From assembly GCA_905479975.1 (NCBI GenBank), contig CAJQOS010000109.1, positions 1 to 39,865 on the forward strand: a stretch of 39,865 bases of DNA, given 5' to 3'. The notes under the pieces are model-generated. The model saw nothing but the letters and a program-made list of their open reading frames with translations, was not told the DNA's origin and searched no databases. Every line of letters starts with the position of its first letter. The stretch's first letter is position 1. Below are positions 4,672 to 36,610 of this stretch, in pieces. This stretch comes from an uncultured Puniceicoccaceae bacterium (lineage in GTDB: Bacteria > Verrucomicrobiota > Verrucomicrobiia > Opitutales > Coraliomargaritaceae). The position numbers were made by a program, and so were the translations under genes.

Positions 4672-5529
4672 TCATTTACTGGGTTTCCAGCTACCCCACA
4701 GCCGCGAAAATGCATTCACGAACAGATAAACCAAAGCAGCGATCAGAATAACAGACGGCCCACTCGGTAAATCCAGCGAAAAACTCAACCCCAACCCCAC
4801 GAACACAAAGGCCACATTCAGCAAAATCGCCACAACCAGCATACGCCACAGGCTGCGCGCACCCAGCGCCGCAATCGCCGGCGGCAGTGTCAGCAGTGCG
4901 ATCACCAGCACGATCCCCACAAACGAGACCATGATCACCACCGTCAGCGCCGTCAGCATCAACAGCAACATATAGACCCAGTCCGAGCGCACTCCACGGA
5001 TCGACGCATACTCCGCATCGAAGCACACCGCAATGATCTGCCGATGCCACACACCGAGAATCCCCAGAATTAATACTCCGACGCCCCCCGCAATCCATAG
5101 ATCCGAAGCCGTCACCAGTAATATATCGCCAAAAAAGTAGGCCATCGGGTCCACATACCCCGGCGTCCTTGCGATAAAGAGCAGCCCAACAGCCATGCCC
5201 GTCACCCAAATCGAGCCAATCAGCGCATCTTCGCGCTGTCGCGACCGCAGCGACACCCAACCAATCAAGCCCGCAGCCGCCAGCGCGACCACCAAAGCCC
5301 CGAGCATCGGGTGCAACCACTCCCAGCCATATATACTGCGACAATACAACGCCGCACCGATCCCACCGAGGGCCGAGTGCGCAATCGCCGCCGCCAAATA
5401 ACTGATCCGCCGAGCCACCACAAAGGTGCCCACCGCTCCGAGCGGGACACTGCCAATCAGCCCCAAACACAGCGCATAGCGCAAAAAAACCAAATCCGGA
5501 TCCATCAATGCCTGTAAAAAATTCACCAT
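4672..5529 (-). CDS. znuB: Metal ABC transporter permease, ZnuB type
   Basis: 285 aa, about eight to nine hydrophobic segments, typical of the ABC-3 permease family (ZnuB/MntB/TroC). Family-like stretches are GSVPLGAVGTFVVARRISYLAAAIAHSALGGIGAAL (residues about 26-61), VGIVLVIALLTLPPAIAAL near residue 205, and a C-terminal LPSGPSVILIAALVYLF. It forms the inner-membrane channel of an importer with the ATPase and binding lipoprotein encoded just upstream (61 nt away). The histidine-rich partners suggest zinc, but permease sequence alone does not separate zinc from manganese. Confidence 0.9.
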   Translation of the reverse strand: MVNFLQALMDPDLVFLRYALCLGLIGSVPLGAVGTFVVARRISYLAAAIAHSALGGIGAALYCRSIYGWEWLHPMLGALVVALAAAGLIGWVSLRSRQREDALIGSIWVTGMAVGLLFIARTPGYVDPMAYFFGDILLVTASDLWIAGGVGVLILGILGVWHRQIIAVCFDAEYASIRGVRSDWVYMLLLMLTALTVVIMVSFVGIVLVIALLTLPPAIAALGARSLWRMLVVAILLNVAFVFVGLGLSFSLDLPSGPSVILIAALVYLFVNAFSRLWGSWKPSK

Positions 5530-5590
5530 TCTAAATTCTAAATTGCCACTCTCTCACTCTCACTCGCGAAGCGTTCACTCGCCGAAGGCG

Positions 5591-6394
5591 TCAGTGATGA
5601 TGCCCCCCATGACTGTCCAGATGCTCATGATCATGCTGCACCATCCGCATCTCGAAACCATACAGCTGGCGCAGCCGCTCGTGCGTCAACTCCGTCGTCG
5701 GGTGCACATGCACGCAACGATTCACGCAGACCACCTTCGGCACCGAGCGCGAAACAAAGGCCAAATCATGCGACACCGTGACCAGCGTCAAATCCTCGTG
5801 CAGCGACTTCAAGCTCTTCAACAAGCGCTCCTCCGCTGCCACATCCACATGCGCAGTCGGCTCATCCAGTAGCAACACATCCACCTCAGCAGCCAATGCC
5901 CGAGCGATCAACACCGCCTGCCGCTGCCCACCAGATAGCGCCGCAAACGAATCCTGCGCCCGATCCGCCAAGCCCATCTGCTCCAGCGCCTCCAGCGCAC
6001 GCAACGTATCTTTACGGCGACTAAAGCCAAAACTCTTCCGCGATAGACGCCCCATCAGCACCACATCCAACACCGTCACCGGAAACAATGGATCAAAATC
6101 AATATGCTGCGGCACATAGCCCACGCGCGAACGCGAGCGCTTCGGCGAATCGCCCAACAAATGCACCTGCCCGACATCTGGCTGCAACAACCCCAGCATC
6201 AGCTTCAACAGGGTCGATTTCCCGCCCCCGTTCGGGCCAACCACACAAACCGACTCGCCTTTATATATGTCAAAGTCCGCATCCTCGACCACCAGCGAAC
6301 GCCCGTAGCTAAAAGACACGCCTTCAAAGCAAATCACCGGCTCACCCGAATGATGCTCACAGCCGCAAGTCGCATGTGCGCCACAATCACTCAT
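5591..6394 (-). CDS. znuC: Metal ABC transporter ATP-binding protein with histidine-rich ends, ZnuC type
   Basis: 267 aa from the ATG at 6394, which overlaps the znuA stop by 8 nt and gives tight translational coupling. Walker A is GPNGGGKST at residues 53-61, the signature is LSGGQRQ, Walker B is VDVLLLDEPTAHVD, and the H-loop is in VTVSHDLAF. Family members usually start close to the nucleotide-binding domain. Here an N-terminal Cys/His stretch (SDCGAHATCGCEHH) and a His-rich tail (HDHEHLDSHGGHHH) are added, likely metal-binding and cytosolic. It powers uptake through the ZnuB-type permease. Confidence 0.92.
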   Translation of the reverse strand: MSDCGAHATCGCEHHSGEPVICFEGVSFSYGRSLVVEDADFDIYKGESVCVVGPNGGGKSTLLKLMLGLLQPDVGQVHLLGDSPKRSRSRVGYVPQHIDFDPLFPVTVLDVVLMGRLSRKSFGFSRRKDTLRALEALEQMGLADRAQDSFAALSGGQRQAVLIARALAAEVDVLLLDEPTAHVDVAAEERLLKSLKSLHEDLTLVTVSHDLAFVSRSVPKVVCVNRCVHVHPTTELTHERLRQLYGFEMRMVQHDHEHLDSHGGHHH

Positions 6395-7280
6395 TGCGAA
6401 AGCCCCCTTCCAGCGCATTCGCGATCTCAGTCAGCCCTGCAAGATAGTCGGCCGGCAGTAAATTCACCTCAACGACCGGCACCTCCAGCGCATCCGCCAA
6501 AATCCTCGCCGTGGTGCGCCCAAACTCAGGCTGCGTAAAAATCGCCCCAACCCTCGCCTCGCGCGCCTGAGCGATCAAATCCGCCACCCGCCCAGCCGAC
6601 GGCGCCGTGCCAGACTGCTCGATCGATAGCTGCACCAGACCATAGCGCCCTGCGAAATGCCCCAGCGCCGGATGGTTAATAAAAAACGCACGCCCTGCAT
6701 ACGGTGCCAACTGCGCACGCACGGTCACGTCGAGCGCAACCAGCTCTGCAATCAAAGCCTGCGAATTACCCCGAAAGACATCCGCCGACTCAGGCTCTAC
6801 CTCGATCAATGCCTCGCGCATCTGCTCCACCACGCCGACCATTTGCACAGGATCGAGCCAGATGTGCGGATCATTGTCACCATGATCGTGATGGCCATGA
6901 TCATGCCCCGGATGACCACACTGCGACGCAATCTCGCCACCAGTCTGCACCACTCGCACGCCAGGCATCGACGACTGCATACGCGCAAACAACGGTGCCT
7001 CGATCGGCATCCCGATGCCAAAATACACATCCGCCCGCGCCAACTGCGCCACCTGCGCCGCACTCGGCGCATACATCTCAGGGCTCTGCCCTGGGCGCAC
7101 CAGCACCTCCGAAGCGACCAAGCCGCCGCCAATCCGCTCAACGAAATACGCCTGTGGCAGCACCGTGCTCCACGCGGTCAAGCCCTGCTCCTCCTTTTGA
7201 GGTGCGCAGGCACTGAACAACAGCACGACCAAACAGGTCAGGCCTCCTAAAACGAATGATTTGATCCACTGCATCTGCAT
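6387..7280 (-). CDS. znuA: Zinc-binding lipoprotein of the ABC importer, ZnuA type
   Basis: 297 aa. A hydrophobic N-terminus ends in the lipobox FSAC with the lipidated Cys at residue 25, so the protein is probably membrane-anchored and exported. It belongs to the cluster A-I (ZnuA/TroA) metal-binding proteins: PQAYFVERIGGG, then a charged His-rich loop at residues 121-139 (CGHPGHDHGHHDHG), then DPHIWLDP, and later FINHPALGHFAGRYGL and IFTQPEFGRTTARILAD. The His loop is characteristic of zinc rather than manganese binding proteins. It is the first gene of the operon. I searched the 121 nt in front of it and found no copy of the 23-bp operator seen at 34.2-35.0 kb. Confidence 0.92.
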   Translation of the reverse strand: MQMQWIKSFVLGGLTCLVVLLFSACAPQKEEQGLTAWSTVLPQAYFVERIGGGLVASEVLVRPGQSPEMYAPSAAQVAQLARADVYFGIGMPIEAPLFARMQSSMPGVRVVQTGGEIASQCGHPGHDHGHHDHGDNDPHIWLDPVQMVGVVEQMREALIEVEPESADVFRGNSQALIAELVALDVTVRAQLAPYAGRAFFINHPALGHFAGRYGLVQLSIEQSGTAPSAGRVADLIAQAREARVGAIFTQPEFGRTTARILADALEVPVVEVNLLPADYLAGLTEIANALEGGFRNE

Positions 7281-7401: not shown

Positions 7402-7605
7402 ATGAACACAGAAAAAGACAGTTGCTCGACCAGTGGTTGCGGGGGACCAGGCATGTGCCCCGGCATCGCACTCTTACTATCGACCCTCATCGGCGCTGGC
7501 ATCGCGGAGCTCAGCAGCAGTATATCACTCGGCTGGCTGATTGGAGCACCACTCTTCCTCGCCCTGATCATGGGTTGGCACAAGAAACTCCTTGGCTCCC
7601 ATTGA
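7402..7605 (+). CDS. Small Cys-rich membrane protein, unknown function
   Basis: 67 aa, start ATG at 7402. The first 21 residues contain the motif CSTSGCGGPGMCPG, with three cysteines in a Gly-rich context. They are followed by two hydrophobic stretches (IALLLSTLIGAGIAELSSS and LGWLIGAPLFLALIMGW) and a short basic tail. I do not recognise a family. It diverges from znuA with 121 nt between starts and ends 34 nt before the convergent PEP-CTERM gene. The clean membrane pattern supports a real gene, but there is no clear ribosome-binding site. The cysteines next to a zinc importer make metal binding conceivable; that is inference. Confidence 0.5.
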   Translation: MNTEKDSCSTSGCGGPGMCPGIALLLSTLIGAGIAELSSSISLGWLIGAPLFLALIMGWHKKLLGSH

Positions 7606-7639: not shown

Positions 7640-8596
7640 CTAGCGACGACGGCGAACAGCCACCACGCCTAGAACCGAAAAACCAAGGAGCAGCGCATAC
7701 GTCGCAGGCTCTGGGACTGGCGACTCGCCACTGGCCGTGTAAGGACTGGAAGAGATACCCAACTCATCCCAAGAACCGTCCGGATCATAGTCAAAGGCAT
7801 CATCTTCTACCCCGCCGAAATCCTGATTCAATGCATTTGGATTGGTTGCTGTCATCAAAATGAATGACATTTCAGTGTTTTCGGTTAAATCGGCAGGCGT
7901 AGGGTCAGTAGGATGGTCTAGGGCGAACATTCCCAAGAAGGCCGTATTCAAAGCGACCATATCAATTTTAAAGCTAACAAAATAGTCAGGACTCCCCGCA
8001 CCATCAATATCATTCGTGCCTTGCGCCCCTGCTCCCGTAGTATAGTAACTATCATTCGTAGTGGTCACTTCGTCAAAAGACGCAAAGTCACCAAAAAGAG
8101 GACTAGTTGAATCCCCTGCGATATAGTCATCATAATGGGCAATATCCGTAGAGGACGGCGAGGTGTTAGCCAAGGGGTCAGTAGCACTACCGGAACGATA
8201 AAAGGCGATTACATCATGCTTAGACTGGTTATTATCAACACTGACATCGATAAAGAAATCAATGGCTCCTGGATTGCCAACACCTTTGATATCAATACCG
8301 ACAAAAATATGCGAAGTGGGAACACCCGCCAAACGCGCGCGGAAGGCCAGCTCATCACCCGAAAGTGTATTATCTCCGCCATCAAAATACTGTTTGTAGA
8401 ACCCTGACTGCACGTCAGTCTCGCTTCCCACGATATCGCCACCTTCGCTCTGAGCCTGCTCGTCTTCGAGGAAGTCGGAACGCCCCCCAAGCTGCAACGC
8501 AGTCCAGTCATCAGTGGGACCGTTCAGCGCGATCACCGCCCAAGCGGAAGGAGCGACAAATAAGGCGAAAAGGGGGAGTAAAGCTAACTGTTTCAT
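7640..8596 (-). CDS. PEP-CTERM exported protein
   Basis: 318 aa. An N-terminal signal peptide (MKQLALLPLFALFVAPSAWA) is followed by an acidic, Gly/Asp-rich body and a C-terminal sorting signal: PVPEP at residues 293-297, a hydrophobic stretch (TYALLLGFSVLGVVAV) and the tail RRRR. PEP-CTERM signals direct proteins to exosortase for surface or extracellular-matrix display in biofilm-forming bacteria. The body (many Asp/Asn turns, FVGIDIKGVGNPGAIDFFIDVSVDN) looks like an extracellular beta-rich domain; I cannot name a domain. It has its own promoter region in the 138 nt upstream. Confidence 0.9.
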   Translation of the reverse strand: MKQLALLPLFALFVAPSAWAVIALNGPTDDWTALQLGGRSDFLEDEQAQSEGGDIVGSETDVQSGFYKQYFDGGDNTLSGDELAFRARLAGVPTSHIFVGIDIKGVGNPGAIDFFIDVSVDNNQSKHDVIAFYRSGSATDPLANTSPSSTDIAHYDDYIAGDSTSPLFGDFASFDEVTTTNDSYYTTGAGAQGTNDIDGAGSPDYFVSFKIDMVALNTAFLGMFALDHPTDPTPADLTENTEMSFILMTATNPNALNQDFGGVEDDAFDYDPDGSWDELGISSSPYTASGESPVPEPATYALLLGFSVLGVVAVRRRR

Positions 8597-18608: not shown

Positions 18609-20195
18609 CTAGAGGCGAATCACGCGATACTTCTCGATCGCAGCGTTATCAGTGATCTTCTTGATAGCGACCTCTGAAGGCGCACTGTCCAACTCGAAGA
18701 CGCTGACTGCAAAACCTTCACCCTGATCGCGGCTAAGCGACATATTCGCGATGTTCACATTGTCTTCGCCCAGAGTCACACCGATGAAACCAACGATACC
18801 GGGAACGTCCTTGTTCTTTAGAACCAGCAGTGTCGCGTCAGTGCTGACCTCAACACCATGTCCGTCAAGTGTGACGATACGTGGAGTCTGGTTTTTACCA
18901 ACCAATGTGCCACCGATCGTGCGTGTCTTGCCGCCCTTGCAGGTGACTTCAACTTCGACCAGTTCAGTGAATTCGGCGTGAACCGAAGTCTTCACCTGCT
19001 CAGTCACTATGCCGAGGCGCTCGATCTTCTTCGGCGCATTGACGTCGTTCACGTTCTCAGAGATATCGCGCAGGTAACCGCGTTGGATCGCATAAGTAAG
19101 CGGCAGCGTGTCGAGCTCAGTGATCTTACCGAAGTAGCGGATCGTGATCTTCTCCACACCATCCGGAGCCATTTGCTGCGAGAATGTGCCGAGTTTTTCG
19201 CCCAGCGTCATGTAAGGCGCAAGCTGTGCCAATGTCTTCGGGTCAAGCGATGGCATGTTCAGCGCATTGCGAACCATCTCGCCCTTGAGGGCTTCGATCA
19301 TCTGCTTGGCCACGTCGATGCCGACATTCTCCTGAGCTTCCTGAGTGGAGGCTCCAAGGTGTGGAGTGAGCACAAGATTGTCGATTTGACGCAAAGGGCT
19401 ATCAGCTGCTGGTGGCTCGTCTTCGTAAACGTCGAGGCCTGCTGCGGCAACTTTGCCAGATTTCAACGCTTCGATCAGTGCAGCCTCGTCAATGATACCA
19501 CCACGCGCGCAATTGAAGACGCGAACGCCATCTTTCATGCGGCCGAAAGCATCTGCGTTCAGCATGTGCTTAGTCTGTGCAGTGAGCGGCATGTGCACCG
19601 AAATATAATCCGCCTGCTCAATCACTTCGTCGAGTGTTGCCTGTGTCACGCCGAGCGTCTTGGCGCGCGACTCCGTGAGATACGGATCATAAGCGATAAC
19701 GGTCATGTTAAATGCTTGAGCACGCTTCGCAAGTTCAGCACCAATACGCCCCATACCGAGGACGCCGAGCGTCTTACCGTTCAACTCGGAACCAGTGTAA
19801 AGCTTACGATCCCAACGACCAGCCGTCATGCTTGCAGCAGCCTGCACGATCGGACGTGTGCCAGCGAGCATGTGCGTGAAAGTCAGCTCTGCAGTGGCCA
19901 GCGTGTTACCAGTCGGCGTGTTCATGACGATCACACCGCCGTCTGTGGCTGCTTCGATATCGATATTATCGACACCGACACCAGCACGACCGACGACCTT
20001 GAGCTTCGGCGCAGCAGCGACGACCTCAGCAGTCACACGCGTGTCGGAACGCAATGCAATTGCATCGACGTCCTTTACGATTTCAAGGAGCTGCTCAGGA
20101 GTGGAGCCATAGGCCTCGATTACTTCAAAGCCTGCTTCAGCTTTGAACAAATCAACACCAATGGGAGAGATACGGTCTGCGACTAGAATTTTCAT
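18609..20195 (-). CDS. serA: D-3-phosphoglycerate dehydrogenase
   Basis: 528 aa from ATG 20195. NAD-binding GMGRIG is at residues 147-152. Catalytic-domain stretches are VVGRAGVGVDNIDIEAAT, NCARGGIIDEAALIEAL and LVLTPHLGASTQEAQENVG. After residue about 315 comes the extra intervening domain of the long type and a C-terminal ACT domain (DVPGIVGFIGVTLGEDNVNIANMSLSRD). This matches the long (about 525 aa) SerA form that is typically serine-regulated. It starts serine biosynthesis by oxidising 3-phosphoglycerate. Confidence 0.96.
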   Translation of the reverse strand: MKILVADRISPIGVDLFKAEAGFEVIEAYGSTPEQLLEIVKDVDAIALRSDTRVTAEVVAAAPKLKVVGRAGVGVDNIDIEAATDGGVIVMNTPTGNTLATAELTFTHMLAGTRPIVQAAASMTAGRWDRKLYTGSELNGKTLGVLGMGRIGAELAKRAQAFNMTVIAYDPYLTESRAKTLGVTQATLDEVIEQADYISVHMPLTAQTKHMLNADAFGRMKDGVRVFNCARGGIIDEAALIEALKSGKVAAAGLDVYEDEPPAADSPLRQIDNLVLTPHLGASTQEAQENVGIDVAKQMIEALKGEMVRNALNMPSLDPKTLAQLAPYMTLGEKLGTFSQQMAPDGVEKITIRYFGKITELDTLPLTYAIQRGYLRDISENVNDVNAPKKIERLGIVTEQVKTSVHAEFTELVEVEVTCKGGKTRTIGGTLVGKNQTPRIVTLDGHGVEVSTDATLLVLKNKDVPGIVGFIGVTLGEDNVNIANMSLSRDQGEGFAVSVFELDSAPSEVAIKKITDNAAIEKYRVIRL

Positions 20196-33680: not shown

Positions 33681-34118
33681 CTAGCTGTGATTATCACAGT
33701 CTTTGCACACCCCGTAGACTTCCATAACGTGTGTAATCTGGGAGTAACCGTGAGCCTTCGCGCGTCCCAACACTTCTTTGCCGACGCACAGGTCCAAGCG
33801 TTCAGCTTGATGGCACTCTCGACAAATCAGGTGATGGTAGTGCTCCCCGGGGGCAGTTAGCTCGAAGAGTTGTGTGCCATTTTCAAGCGGAATGCGTTGA
33901 ATCACCCCAATGCTTTGCAGCGCCTCCAAGTTTCGATACACAGTCACTAGATCGGTTTCCAGTAGCCCAGCTCTCTGCCGAATTTCGTCGGCGCTCGCAG
34001 GATGCTCGAATTGCGTCAACGCTTCTACGATACGGACCCGCTTTTTCGTAATCCGTCCGCCCCCAGCGCGCATGCGCTCTAAAATGGTCTCTATCAAACT
34101 GTCAGGGGCGGAGTTCAT
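33681..34118 (-). CDS. Fur-family metalloregulator, probably Zur-like
   Basis: 145 aa from ATG 34118; a 180-aa frame from 34223 adds an N-terminus unlike the family and would crowd the operator. The winged helix contains RITKKRVRIVEALTQFEHPASADEIRQRAG and DLVTVYRNLEALQSIGVIQRI. Metal sites are suggested by GEHYHHLICRECHQAERLDL (first Cys pair) and the C-terminal VYGVCKDCDNH (second pair). Whether it senses zinc or iron cannot be read from the protein. Zur is favoured because the neighbouring target genes resemble zinc-acquisition genes and share a palindromic operator. Confidence 0.88.
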   Translation of the reverse strand: MNSAPDSLIETILERMRAGGGRITKKRVRIVEALTQFEHPASADEIRQRAGLLETDLVTVYRNLEALQSIGVIQRIPLENGTQLFELTAPGEHYHHLICRECHQAERLDLCVGKEVLGRAKAHGYSQITHVMEVYGVCKDCDNHS

Positions 34119-34246
34119 TGTGCCTATACTGTGAGGGCTCAATTCAGATTCAAGTTCATTCCCCTCGATATCGCGTGGGCAAGTGAAGTATGAGCGCACC
34201 CCACTATCGAAAACGACTTGCATTAGAATAAAAAATACGCTTCGTG

Positions 34247-34269
34247 TTAATGAAAGTCACTTACACTTA
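34247..34269. promoter_or_regulatory. Fur/Zur-like operator 1, in front of the MerC-domain gene
   Basis: Pattern TTAATGAAA, GTCAC, TTACACTTA. The left arm is identical to that of operator 3; the right arm is degenerate (6 of 9 positions pair). Its last base is the A of the MerC-domain ATG. It lies between the divergent Fur-family and MerC genes, so it could also serve autoregulation. Confidence 0.6.
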
Positions 34270-34868
34270 TGCACACACACTCTCTTAGTAGCCGTTTTTT
34301 AGATCAAGTCGCCATCTCGATGGCTGTCATCTGCGCGATCCATTGCTTAGTCACTCCGGTCTTGCTCGTTGCGCTACCTATTTTAGCGACGACTTTTTGG
34401 GTGGATGCGAACTTTCACCTATGGATGATTCTGTTGGTGATTCCGACCACTACGTTGGCTGTTTGGAGTGGGTGTCGCCGGCATCGGGACAGATGGGTGA
34501 TTGGCATCGCAGCCGTTGGCTTGGGGCTTCTGTCGATTGCAGTCGCCAGCGAGCGCTATGCAAAGGCTTCCGCTCGGAGCGATTCGGCATCAGCGATTCA
34601 ATTGTCGTCGGGGCCAGATGCGCGACTAGCGATAGAATCAAACGCCTCTGACTGTGCGGCCTGCAGCACGTGTGTTCCTAGCTCGAAGGAGGGCGGCAAC
34701 ACTGCAGGCAAGACCACTACACGTGCGGGACTCCCATGGCATTTGTTACTCAATATCGCTGGAGGCCTCTTATTGGCAACTGCACACACGCGTAACTTCC
34801 TCCTCTGCCGGAAAGACAGCTGTCAGCATTCAGATAAAACGCACAGCGGCTGCGACCTCAAGAGATGA
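34269..34868 (+). CDS. MerC-domain membrane protein with Cys/His-rich loops
   Basis: 199 aa. Four hydrophobic segments are visible. The first carries the MerC-type metal motif Cys22-Ala-Ile-His25-Cys26 (MAVICAIHCLVTPVLLVALP). An insert before the last membrane segment holds SDCAACSTCVP, and the tail is rich in Cys and His (LCRKDSCQHSDKTHSGCDLK). MerC proteins were first known from mercury transport, but stand-alone homologues near Fur/Zur regulators are likely to handle zinc or another metal. It is divergent from the Fur-family gene and carries an operator at its start. Confidence 0.85.
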   Translation: MHTHSLSSRFLDQVAISMAVICAIHCLVTPVLLVALPILATTFWVDANFHLWMILLVIPTTTLAVWSGCRRHRDRWVIGIAAVGLGLLSIAVASERYAKASARSDSASAIQLSSGPDARLAIESNASDCAACSTCVPSSKEGGNTAGKTTTRAGLPWHLLLNIAGGLLLATAHTRNFLLCRKDSCQHSDKTHSGCDLKR

Positions 34869-34892
34869 GCTGGCAGCATAGGACGCTAACCA

Positions 34893-34915
34893 TTAACGAC
34901 AATCACTTTCATTAA
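34893..34915. promoter_or_regulatory. Fur/Zur-like operator 2
   Basis: Pattern TTAACGACA, ATCAC, TTTCATTAA; the 9-nt arms pair at seven positions. Its centre is 41 nt, about four helical turns, from that of operator 3, so two repressor dimers could bind the same face of the DNA. Confidence 0.7.
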
Positions 34916-34933
34916 CACTTGACTCGTGCGCCA

Positions 34934-34956
34934 TTAATGAAAATGACTTTCGTTAA
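34934..34956. promoter_or_regulatory. Fur/Zur-like operator 3, at the pseudopilin start
   Basis: Pattern TTAATGAAA, ATGAC, TTTCGTTAA; eight of nine arm positions pair. The core TGAAAATGACTTTCG is close in form to Zur boxes described in actinobacteria. The last base is the A of the ATG at 34956, so bound repressor would cover the translation start and probably the transcription start. Confidence 0.75.
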
Positions 34957-35672
34957 TGACTCTTTTACGAAAACCCTACGCTGCAGGTATTGCCGCTTTT
35001 ACTTTGATCGAGCTCTTGACGGTCATCGCAGTGATCGGAGTGCTGACGGCGATTCTGATACCTGCAATCGGGGCGACCCGGCAATCTGCACAAAAAGCCA
35101 AGTGCGCATCCAATCTTCGTCAGATTGGACAAGCGATCAGTCTGTTCGCGATGAACAACAAAGGCTACTTCCCTCTGTCAACGCACACGGTGCGAAATGT
35201 CGAGGAGAGCTGGATTTACACAATAGCCCCCTACTTAGGCGAAGTTGACGAAGTGCGCATATGCCCGGCAGATCCTCAAGGAGCCGAGCGTCTGGAACGG
35301 AATTTAACAAGCTACGTGTTAAATGAATTCGTGGTGGTTCCGAACATGGACCCTTTCGGCCAAATGCGCACGGACAGCTATACCAACCTGTGGCGACTCC
35401 ACAACCCTGCGCGGACGATGGTGGCATTTATCGCATCAGACAGTATGGCCTTGGGCGATCACTCTGACCACACCCACTCTCGGGGCTGGGGAAACTGGAA
35501 TCGCGTGATCGCAGACATTCAACCCAATCGCTTCGGTTCAGAGAGCTCGGACGGGCTAGGTGGCTCGTCAAACGTTCTCTTCGCGGATGGCCATGTCGAT
35601 ACGATTGAGGCGGAAGCGCTGCGTCAAAAAGTTCTATCCGGGAATAATCCAGCCGATCCTGCAAGTTTCTAA
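34956..35672 (+). CDS. Pseudopilin-like protein with prepilin N-terminal signal
   Basis: 238 aa. The N-terminal FTLIELLTVIAVIGVLTAILIPAI is the type IV pilin/pseudopilin helix, with Glu19 at position +5 of the mature protein. The residue before the cleavage point is Ala instead of the usual Gly, which may slow or block processing. The C-terminal part contains the SSNVLFADGHVDTI motif common in verrucomicrobial and planctomycetal members of this large family. The presence of operators 2 and 3 and the 64-nt gap to the next gene suggest it is expressed with the surface protein under metal limitation. Confidence 0.85.
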   Translation: MTLLRKPYAAGIAAFTLIELLTVIAVIGVLTAILIPAIGATRQSAQKAKCASNLRQIGQAISLFAMNNKGYFPLSTHTVRNVEESWIYTIAPYLGEVDEVRICPADPQGAERLERNLTSYVLNEFVVVPNMDPFGQMRTDSYTNLWRLHNPARTMVAFIASDSMALGDHSDHTHSRGWGNWNRVIADIQPNRFGSESSDGLGGSSNVLFADGHVDTIEAEALRQKVLSGNNPADPASF

Positions 35673-35736
35673 CTGATCACCCGCTCCGCCCCCGAATCGT
35701 CTTTTCTTTTTAACCACCAACTAGACACACAAACAC

Positions 35737-36456
35737 ATGCATACAAAATACACGACTCTACTGAGCCTATCTGCGCTCAGCTTATTGACCGCCCAGGCTC
35801 ACGGGCAGCTTATCTACAGCGCTGGCCATATCGATATTGGCATCGCTTATGAAAGCGGCGAATGGGAGCCTCATGTTCACGACGAAGAAAATGATATCGA
35901 ATACGAATCCGATGCATTGCTCTTTCATGGAGATGAGACCAATAGCGCCAACTTCAAGCTAGCTGCACCCGGGGCAGGCCTTTTTGGTTTTCTAGGGGAT
36001 GCGGGAGACGACATCTTCATTTTTCCGCAAGTTGAAGATACCTCGCTGCCATTCATCGGCATTGCTGCCGAAGAGATCGACCAAGCCGACTTCGCGACAA
36101 CTGAAATCACGCTAGAGCTGTCTGGATTCTCGGGGCCAGGTGATTTCTTTCTCTACCAAACAGACGGCTTTGGTGCACCCTCCCTACTTTACGATACAAC
36201 AGACGGACTGAATGACGTGCTAACGCTGAATATCGGTTCTCACGCTCACTACAACTTCGCCTTCACAGCTGAAGGTGTCTATGCGTTGACATTGACTGCT
36301 TCGGGATTCCTTAACGACGGATTCAGCACATTGTCCACGAGTGCACCTGCAACGTTTCTCTTTGGGATCAATGCAGTGCCGGAGCCTTCGGCCTTCGCGT
36401 TGATCGCAGGCTGCATGACAATGGGCTTCGTCGCCATGCGCCGCCGCCGCTCCTAA
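35737..36456 (+). CDS. PEP-CTERM surface protein resembling choice-of-anchor M domain
   Basis: 239 aa. A signal peptide ends at about AQAHG (residue 23). The mature start LIYSAGHIDIGIAYESGEWEPHVHDEEN and the later SHAHYNFAFTAEGVYALTLTASG (His169 and His171) match the two ends of the surface domain known as choice-of-anchor M, found on actinobacterial surface proteins beside metal ABC transporters. The C-terminus is a PEP-CTERM signal: VPEP at 214-217, a hydrophobic stretch and RRRRS. The several His pairs suggest metal binding at the cell surface. It is the last gene before a strong terminator. Confidence 0.82.
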   Translation: MHTKYTTLLSLSALSLLTAQAHGQLIYSAGHIDIGIAYESGEWEPHVHDEENDIEYESDALLFHGDETNSANFKLAAPGAGLFGFLGDAGDDIFIFPQVEDTSLPFIGIAAEEIDQADFATTEITLELSGFSGPGDFFLYQTDGFGAPSLLYDTTDGLNDVLTLNIGSHAHYNFAFTAEGVYALTLTASGFLNDGFSTLSTSAPATFLFGINAVPEPSAFALIAGCMTMGFVAMRRRRS

Positions 36457-36477
36457 TTCAGCACCTTCTTATTGAGC

Positions 36478-36512
36478 AAACGGCGTGTCACCTCTTTGGC
36501 ACGCCGTTTTTT
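36478..36512. terminator. Terminator between the surface-protein gene and mgtE
   Basis: Arms AAACGGCGTGTC and GCACGCCGTTT (one bulge) around a short loop, followed by TTTTTT on the plus strand. It ends the metal-regulated operon. Confidence 0.9.
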
Positions 36513-36610
36513 GATGGATACAGCGAACAGTTAATCGGCGCAAGGTGGAGAGCATCATAGGATGCAACGACCCAATACGACGAATCATTCCCTCTCAGAC
36601 TCTCTCAGTG

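Follow-up and report, generated by a model that had tools for sequence, protein, structure and literature searches.

Zinc-binding surface proteins with HxD and HxH motifs, and PEP-CTERM zinc proteins controlled by the zinc regulator Zur, are already known. In Corynebacterium diphtheriae, an HxD/HxH pair marks ZnuE, ZnuF, ZnuG, CmrA and CmrA2. Zinc changes the thermal stability of ZnuE, ZnuF and ZnuG, and cells that have lost ZnuE grow less well in medium where zinc is limiting (PMC12445094). ZepA (All3515) of Anabaena, with homologues in the Planctomycetes-Verrucomicrobia-Chlamydiae (PVC) group, is a PEP-CTERM exoprotein with a beta-sandwich domain, controlled by Zur and encoded near genes for COG0523, TonB-dependent transporter and Fur proteins; how it delivers zinc is stated to be unknown, an outer-membrane receptor is suggested, and the main text never uses the word pilin (PMC10957091). 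Here we describe a locus on contig CAJQOS010000109.1 of an uncultured Puniceicoccaceae bacterium (Verrucomicrobiota; assembly GCA_905479975.1, about 95% complete), within a stretch of 39,865 nucleotides that was analysed whole and that we call the window. The locus encodes a Fur-family regulator, a MerC-domain protein, a DUF1559-type pilin and a choice-of-anchor M surface protein with a PEP-CTERM tail. Comparison with relatives makes it probable that this is a Zur-controlled zinc-starvation locus for zinc capture, in which the partner on the outer-membrane side is either a ZnuD-like receptor or the pilin.

The locus resembles the C. diphtheriae proteins in its HxD and HxH motifs, which bracket about 150 residues there and 138 (H31 to H169) here, and resembles the znu cluster in the C-terminal anchoring signals of several proteins and, probably, in regulation by zinc and Zur (PMC12445094, PMC6711530). 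That cluster holds a zinc ATP-binding cassette (ABC) transporter, as do some relatives of our locus. C. diphtheriae is Gram-positive and uses sortase-type signals, whereas our locus has an exosortase-type tail and a dedicated pilin, with TonB receptors in sister loci. ZepA shares the PEP-CTERM tail, the beta-sandwich, Zur control and the kinds of neighbour, and we considered and rejected an identity with it: the H-X2-9-H-F/Y-H motif (PMC10957091) occurs in 0 of 34 aligned surface proteins, and there was no ZepA or all3515 model among the matches listed for these 34 proteins (25 of 37 families). The 'anchored repeat' ABC systems (TIGR03770-TIGR03773) are a further likeness, in that their surface-protein and solute-binding protein (SBP) models match the window surface protein (1.3e-23 and 4.8e-12) and their SBP, ATPase and permease models match an ABC operon in the window; all of these matches nevertheless fall below the curated cut-offs, and the ABC genes lie 26 kb from the locus. 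The pilin is unrelated to the ZnuD zinc-piracy receptors (NF038289) that are the best match for the receptors scanned in its place. It shares an N-terminal pilin helix and DUF1559 start with the DUF1559 or H-X9-DG pilins of Planctomycetota and Verrucomicrobiota, but unlike these its family has a distinct head with a DHxH motif. DUF1559 has been called a family of solute-binding proteins (PMC2754498). In titles and abstract openings of the open-licence literature we found no description of this pilin or of its link to zinc; what appears to be new is the dedicated pilin and its exchange with ZnuD-like receptors, together with the operator found in these bacteria.

A sequence-only reading of the same DNA had placed a Fur-family gene divergent from a MerC gene, followed by genes for a pilin-like protein and a PEP-CTERM-tailed protein, and all four are where it put them (Table 1). 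Hidden Markov model searches agreed with its naming of the MerC and choice-of-anchor M domains, the latter far above the NF038134 cut-off of 55 bits, and a strong hairpin followed by U residues ends the locus as it had proposed. Its association of the four genes held in part: the neighbourhood is conserved in relatives, but Zur, MerC, pilin and choice-of-anchor M together are the less common form, found in the window, in L024 and the near-identical L025, in L026 and in L153. The widely conserved core is the pilin with the choice-of-anchor M protein, a pair which that reading did not single out.

The window pilin passes the models for DUF1559 (PF07596, 26.5 bits against a cut-off of 23.3) and for the GFxxxE leader (TIGR02532, 19.9 against 16.3), while PF07963 (16.2 against 21.2) and the C-terminal H-X9-DG model (TIGR04294, 16.1 against 19) fall short. 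A model of its family covers it end to end; the six other matches in the genome stay within positions 7-79 of the 241 in the model. All 51 of 51 family members have the N-terminal pilin helix and the DUF1559 start, and it is the head that sets them apart: of 120 full-length members, counted with near-duplicates, 113 have DHxH and 102 have DHTH; outside the family, DHxH is found in 0 of 5 other pilins and DHTH in 3 of 10,277 open frames. H77, D171, H172, H174, D211 and H213 are conserved. The structure model is confident (predicted local distance difference test, pLDDT, 94.0; predicted template modelling score, pTM, 0.86), yet no solved relative of the head was found, the best Foldseek match being a Myxococcus xanthus pilin at E 0.59 over 63 columns, and a profile search matched only the N-terminal part of pilins.

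We searched for this family in 384 genomes of the class, with E up to 1e-35 and at most 7 of up to 189 candidates scored per genome, and found 61 matches in 57 genomes, possibly an undercount because of the number scored; for choice-of-anchor M up to 8 candidates were scored in some genomes. A choice-of-anchor M gene lay within 2.5 kb of the pilin gene for 50 of the 61 matches (50 of the 55 above 160 bits), with two more at 3.0 and 3.2 kb. Both genes occurred in 51 genomes, a co-occurrence with a genome-level Fisher P = 1.2e-45, uncorrected for shared ancestry. Among the named pilin loci, namely, the best 80 of 395 relatives (mostly Verrucomicrobiota and Planctomycetota, one filed as Chthonomonas), 75 had choice-of-anchor M within 6 kb. 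Loci of this kind are also known from cultured bacteria, among them Cerasicoccus arenae KCTC 12870 (L152), C. frondis NBRC 105381 (L155) and Verrucomicrobium sp. BvORR106 (L164). Of the five without it, L175 and L213 are near contig ends, L219 (Verrucomicrobia bacterium SCGC AAA164-E04) has Fur, MerC and ZigA genes instead, and L221 and L229 have none of these. Such counts (50/61; 75/80) rule out a chance neighbourhood.

Where a choice-of-anchor M gene lacks the pilin, a TonB receptor tends to take its place. We examined 54 loci over a span of 4 kb, one of which (L034) had no choice-of-anchor M gene; the remaining 53 neighbourhoods had the pilin in 36 cases, a TonB receptor in 11, both in none and neither in six (P = 1.6e-7, for loci that are not independent). 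The genomes of the six last either have the pilin elsewhere (L079, L083, L089, L103) or a TonB-type locus (L027, L036). From the other direction, 51 of the 62 class genomes with choice-of-anchor M above cut-off have the pilin, and of the 11 others all but one carry a TonB receptor there; in that one, G333, the choice-of-anchor M gene is near a contig end. None of the 80 named pilin loci had a TonB receptor within 6 kb. The receptors of six of the 11 TonB-type loci were scanned, and for all six the best model was that for ZnuD (177-283 bits, cut-off 950), followed by heme-receptor models. Both types occur within families f1, f20 and f24 and genera g3 and g125, which suggests several switches. 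The difference extends to the whole genome: in a census of 49 of the 57 genomes that have a pilin match and of 10 TonB-type genomes (a sixtieth, G333, was excluded from the comparison) the median number of TonB plug domains was 2 for pilin-type and 14 for TonB-type genomes (P = 2.5e-6), or 0.56 against 3.1 per Mb (P = 6.5e-6). Nine of the 49 pilin-type genomes, several of them incomplete, have no plug domain at E 0.001, and the genome of the window has six. PilT, tried as a discriminator of the two types, was uninformative. As a separate observation, a short Fur-family gene directly follows a TonB receptor gene at L232 (G000:C28), near genes that by eye resemble those for vitamin B12 uptake and synthesis.

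Because relatives swap the pilin for an outer-membrane metal importer, the pilin may be another route for zinc import, and we tentatively suggest that this zinc-regulated pilin is a TonB-independent outer-membrane route in Verrucomicrobiota and Planctomycetota: the head would take zinc from the choice-of-anchor M protein, and retraction would bring it to the periplasm. Of three possible readings of the pilin, such inward carriage of zinc seems to fit the swap best. In a second, rather doubtful reading, the pilin is a dedicated pseudopilin for type II secretion of the choice-of-anchor M protein and transports no zinc. The strict adjacency of the two genes would suit this, as would the need of PEP-CTERM proteins for an outward route and the best NCBIfam match of the pilin, which is the type II pseudopilin GspG (35.5 bits against 88.85, below cut-off); it is weakened, however, by the TonB-type loci L030, L031 and L032, which keep a PEP-tailed choice-of-anchor M protein with no such pilin nearby, so that the pilin is not always needed for export of this protein, by L219, whose pilin has no choice-of-anchor M gene within 6 kb, and by the conservation of DHTH and other pilin residues, which suggests a function of the head itself. 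A third reading, as doubtful as the second, makes the pilin a zinc-starvation filament for adhesion or biofilm, which would keep the cell close to a source of zinc, or retain the surface protein, and import nothing. Pili-type filaments commonly serve adhesion, and these genomes also encode PilT and other pilins, but adhesion by itself leaves the replacement of a ZnuD-like receptor by a pilin unexplained.

A near-palindromic operator of 26 nt, absent from the sequence-only reading, occurs in four copies around merC. The zur-merC region has two of them; the other two are between merC and the pilin gene, and the last extends to the pilin start. Its 23-nt core gives seven matches at these four sites of the window against 0.03 expected. 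Since two copies thus lie ahead of the pilin gene, the genes for the pilin and the surface protein have operators of their own. In the whole genome, the sole extra match to the 23-nt pattern (3 mismatches) is at the start of a gene that by eye encodes a molybdate-type ABC permease. Across loci, a looser consensus close to AATGCAAATNATTTGCATT precedes many pilin, choice-of-anchor M, TonB, MerC, Fur and ZigA genes. We tested a model of this looser operator (10 training sites) on 134 loci, reduced to 119 by removing 15 near-identical ones and to 109 by removing the training loci, though related non-identical loci remain: it had 48 matches of at least 18 bits in the 88 kb upstream of locus and zinc genes, 17 in the 1.52 Mb elsewhere and 0 in one shuffle. 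In a genome-wide scan of 16 chosen genomes, 11 of 24 sites were at pilin, choice-of-anchor M or other zinc genes (17 of the 24 inspected as loci, three placed by their distance from a pilin and four left), and a reversed control gave four sites. An operator-like sequence at position 20048 of the window (18.5 bits), with a weaker counterpart at 1389 of L024, lies within the serA frame and is probably a coding coincidence.

The strongest evidence for zinc is in the predicted operator targets of relatives. Operators unlinked to the locus precede genes for ZigA-type GTPases in G055 (305 bits, below cut-off) and G060 (677 against a cut-off of 600) and for a type-B ribosomal protein L31 in G123 (96.5 against 86). 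In G308 an operator precedes a TonB receptor, cut by the end of the locus, whose best model is ZnuD, below cut-off. In G005, from the genus of the window, operators precede a run of oxidoreductase, GTPase, ZigA and cysteinyl-tRNA synthetase genes, hisI and a second COG0523 gene; L271 of this genome is a cluster of zinc-starvation type with three operators, and its genes encode an oxidoreductase binding flavin adenine dinucleotide, a GTPase, ZigA, cysteinyl-tRNA synthetase, a RibD-like deaminase, HisI and the second COG0523 GTPase. Zur regulons include COG0523, L31, HisI and TonB-receptor genes (PMC6103462). Within 6 kb of the 80 named pilins the neighbours included Fur (13), zinc-type SBP (11), ZigA (8), permease (5) and MerC (3), with any of these at 27 of the 80.

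The regulator itself is most likely Zur, judging from its solved relatives. The best are 3mwm (1.2e-17) and 7vo0 (1.5e-17), filed as 'putative metal uptake regulation protein' and taken by us to be Streptomyces coelicolor Zur, followed by 2o03 (1.3e-15), the 'zinc uptake regulation protein FurB' of Mycobacterium tuberculosis. Among the Fur-family proteins of the genome it alone is nearest to Zur; the three paralogues match best to peroxide regulator/PerR (C2) or Fur entries (C117, C28). Its start may be at 34118 rather than 34223, because frames in relatives (L278, L026, L031) begin at or near the matching Met. Fur/Zur control by zinc or a similar metal, as the sequence-only reading had it, is thereby narrowed, zinc and Zur being the better supported through the solved relatives and the operator targets in relatives.

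The surface protein, the only choice-of-anchor M protein found in the genome, also passes TIGR03769 (33.3 bits against 30.9) and falls just short of the PEP-CTERM models (TIGR02595, 15.9 against 16; PF07589, 17.2 against 20.7). Its tail nonetheless visibly has the PEP, the hydrophobic stretch and the basic end, all 34 aligned proteins keep P215 and E216, and the genome has two exosortase genes above cut-off, so display by exosortase is likely. The HxD...HxH pattern is present in 31 of the 34, with D33 and H169 invariant, H31 in 32, H171 in 33, E112 in 31 and E113 in 32. The tie that the sequence-only reading drew to actinobacterial surface proteins beside metal ABC transporters holds, and homologues in C. 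diphtheriae are zinc/Zur-regulated and zinc-binding (PMC6711530, PMC12445094); by analogy with them, the HxD/HxH residues here would bind zinc. The structure model (pLDDT 91.0, pTM 0.82) gave weak beta-sandwich matches, from 4.3e-4 for the PAD family to about 5e-3 for cupredoxins, and a sequence search gave no match at E 0.1. At L079, L090 and L177 there are very long proteins (1033 to 2047 residues) with several choice-of-anchor M repeats, reminiscent of the multi-motif CmrA type.

In MerC, C22, H25 and C26 are invariant in five aligned homologues (two of them nearly identical). An operator lies 2 to 45 bp upstream of its gene in the window, L026, L031, L032, L275, L276, L278 and L289, and MerC may be an inner-membrane zinc protein. 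The zur-merC pair can occur without the remaining genes, because L278 (G010, in the genus of the window) has it with an operator and no choice-of-anchor M gene was found in that genome. At L275 and L276 (G005, G006) there is a second MerC gene, preceded at 14 bp by an operator; in L276 it adjoins a second Fur-family gene and is on a contig other than that of the pilin locus. The ABC operon of the window (4672-7280, minus strand) has matches to zinc (Azt, Znu), manganese and anchored-repeat models, none of which reaches its cut-off. A gene upstream of it (7640-8596, minus strand) encodes a protein that by eye has a PEP-CTERM tail and that matches nothing in NCBIfam at 1e-10, and there is a small Cys-rich frame at about 7404-7595. 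Neither 4672-7280 nor 7640-8596 has an operator like those of the locus.

The hairpin that closes the locus was not in the output of a consensus scanner; the fold of 36470-36520 has -23.5 kcal/mol, with none of 200 shuffles equally stable (z = -5.44). A promoter scan was uninformative (2 found against 2.2 expected).

Table 1. Features of the locus, in coordinates of the window
Feature	Position	Strand	Basis
Zur-like Fur-family regulator	33681..34223	-	PF01475 64.3 bits, cut-off 23.1; start may be 34118
Operator copy 1, Zur-box-like	34204..34226	+	3 mismatches; 17.6 bits
Operator copy 2, between zur and merC	34247..34269	+	2 mismatches; 14.7 bits
MerC-domain membrane protein	34269..34868	+	PF03203 80.4 bits, cut-off 27.6
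Operator copy 3, upstream of pilin	34893..34915	+	0 mismatches; 15.9 bits
Operator copy 4, to pilin start	34934..34956	+	0 mismatches; 20.8 bits; one of the 10 training sites
DUF1559-type pilin, DHTH motif at residues 171-174	34956..35672	+	PF07596, TIGR02532, structure model
Choice-of-anchor M PEP-CTERM surface protein, H31-x-D33 and H169-x-H171	35737..36456	+	NF038134 112.7 bits
Hairpin with U-tract, likely intrinsic terminator	36478..36512	+	Folding energy against shuffles

From the gene identities, operators, conserved linkage, TonB swap and zinc genes behind similar operators in relatives, all obtained by computation, we infer the following course. With sufficient zinc, Zur would occupy the four operators and shut its own gene, merC, the pilin gene and the surface-protein gene; zinc starvation would free the operators. 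The choice-of-anchor M protein would then be exported, processed by exosortase and kept at the cell surface, its HxD/HxH residues binding zinc, and the pilin, assembled by the type IV filament machinery, would serve as its partner on the outer-membrane side, in the place of a ZnuD-like receptor. Periplasmic zinc would be taken up by a ZnuABC/Azt-type ABC transporter, such as that at 4672-7280, and MerC would be a further zinc protein of the inner membrane. Zinc-responsive control by Zur and zinc capture at the surface are the predictions that comparison and the published homologues support well.

Several results weigh against this account. In the genome of the window there is no convincing operator or second target outside the locus, the looser pattern adding three weak sites (C15, C76, C115; found in a scan of eight chosen genomes, with 20 regions and the known loci inspected) that have no evident zinc gene nearby, and the zinc-type ABC operon of the window has no site for the 23-nt core; the evidence for zinc hence comes from relatives. 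Most of the 109 test loci have no upstream operator match at 18 bits (35 do, and 42 at 15 bits), and no zinc gene was seen at 13 of the 24 genome-wide sites, four of these 13 being uninspected. The regulator scores 26.6 bits for the NCBIfam Zur model NF008646 against a cut-off of 167, and, aligned to relatives of the 3mwm/7vo0 type, it has Thr for one Cys and Tyr for one His and keeps another His, at positions that are presumably sensory ligands in S. coelicolor Zur. Linkage and swap statistics are uncorrected for shared ancestry. L085 has, besides the pilin, a TonB receptor that lies 5 kb from its choice-of-anchor M gene; TonB-rich genomes can carry the pilin, since plug domains number 9 to 18 in seven of the 49 pilin-type genomes; and PilT is present in 59 of 59 genomes of both types. 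Finally, triple-alanine (3xAla) mutants in C. diphtheriae were still zinc-responsive, and their zinc binding was not clearly lost (PMC12445094). It is nonetheless very unlikely that the locus answers to iron or another metal, with Fur as regulator and capture of iron or manganese at the surface: NCBIfam Fur models do score above the Zur model for the regulator (all far below cut-off, and no listed Fur or PerR equivalog reaches its own), the transporters of the window and of neighbourhoods also resemble manganese-type ABC models, and the TonB receptors also match heme-receptor models, but the nearest solved structures are of Zur type, the genome has other Fur-like and PerR-like proteins, the operator targets in relatives are type-B L31, ZigA-type GTPases and HisI, and in C. 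diphtheriae the homologues are under the control of zinc and Zur (PMC6711530).

How zinc passes from surface or secreted proteins across the outer membrane is stated to be open for ZepA (PMC10957091), and the present locus gives one position two answers in close relatives (genera g3 and g125), a ZnuD-like receptor or a dedicated pilin. Should the pilin of the zinc-capture locus indeed move zinc, this would be a new job for type IV filaments, and it would suggest a role in nutrient uptake for other head domains among the numerous DUF1559 pilins of these phyla. Whether or not the pilin transports zinc, the comparison yields a candidate Zur box for these bacteria and brings out a family of pilins that is widespread.

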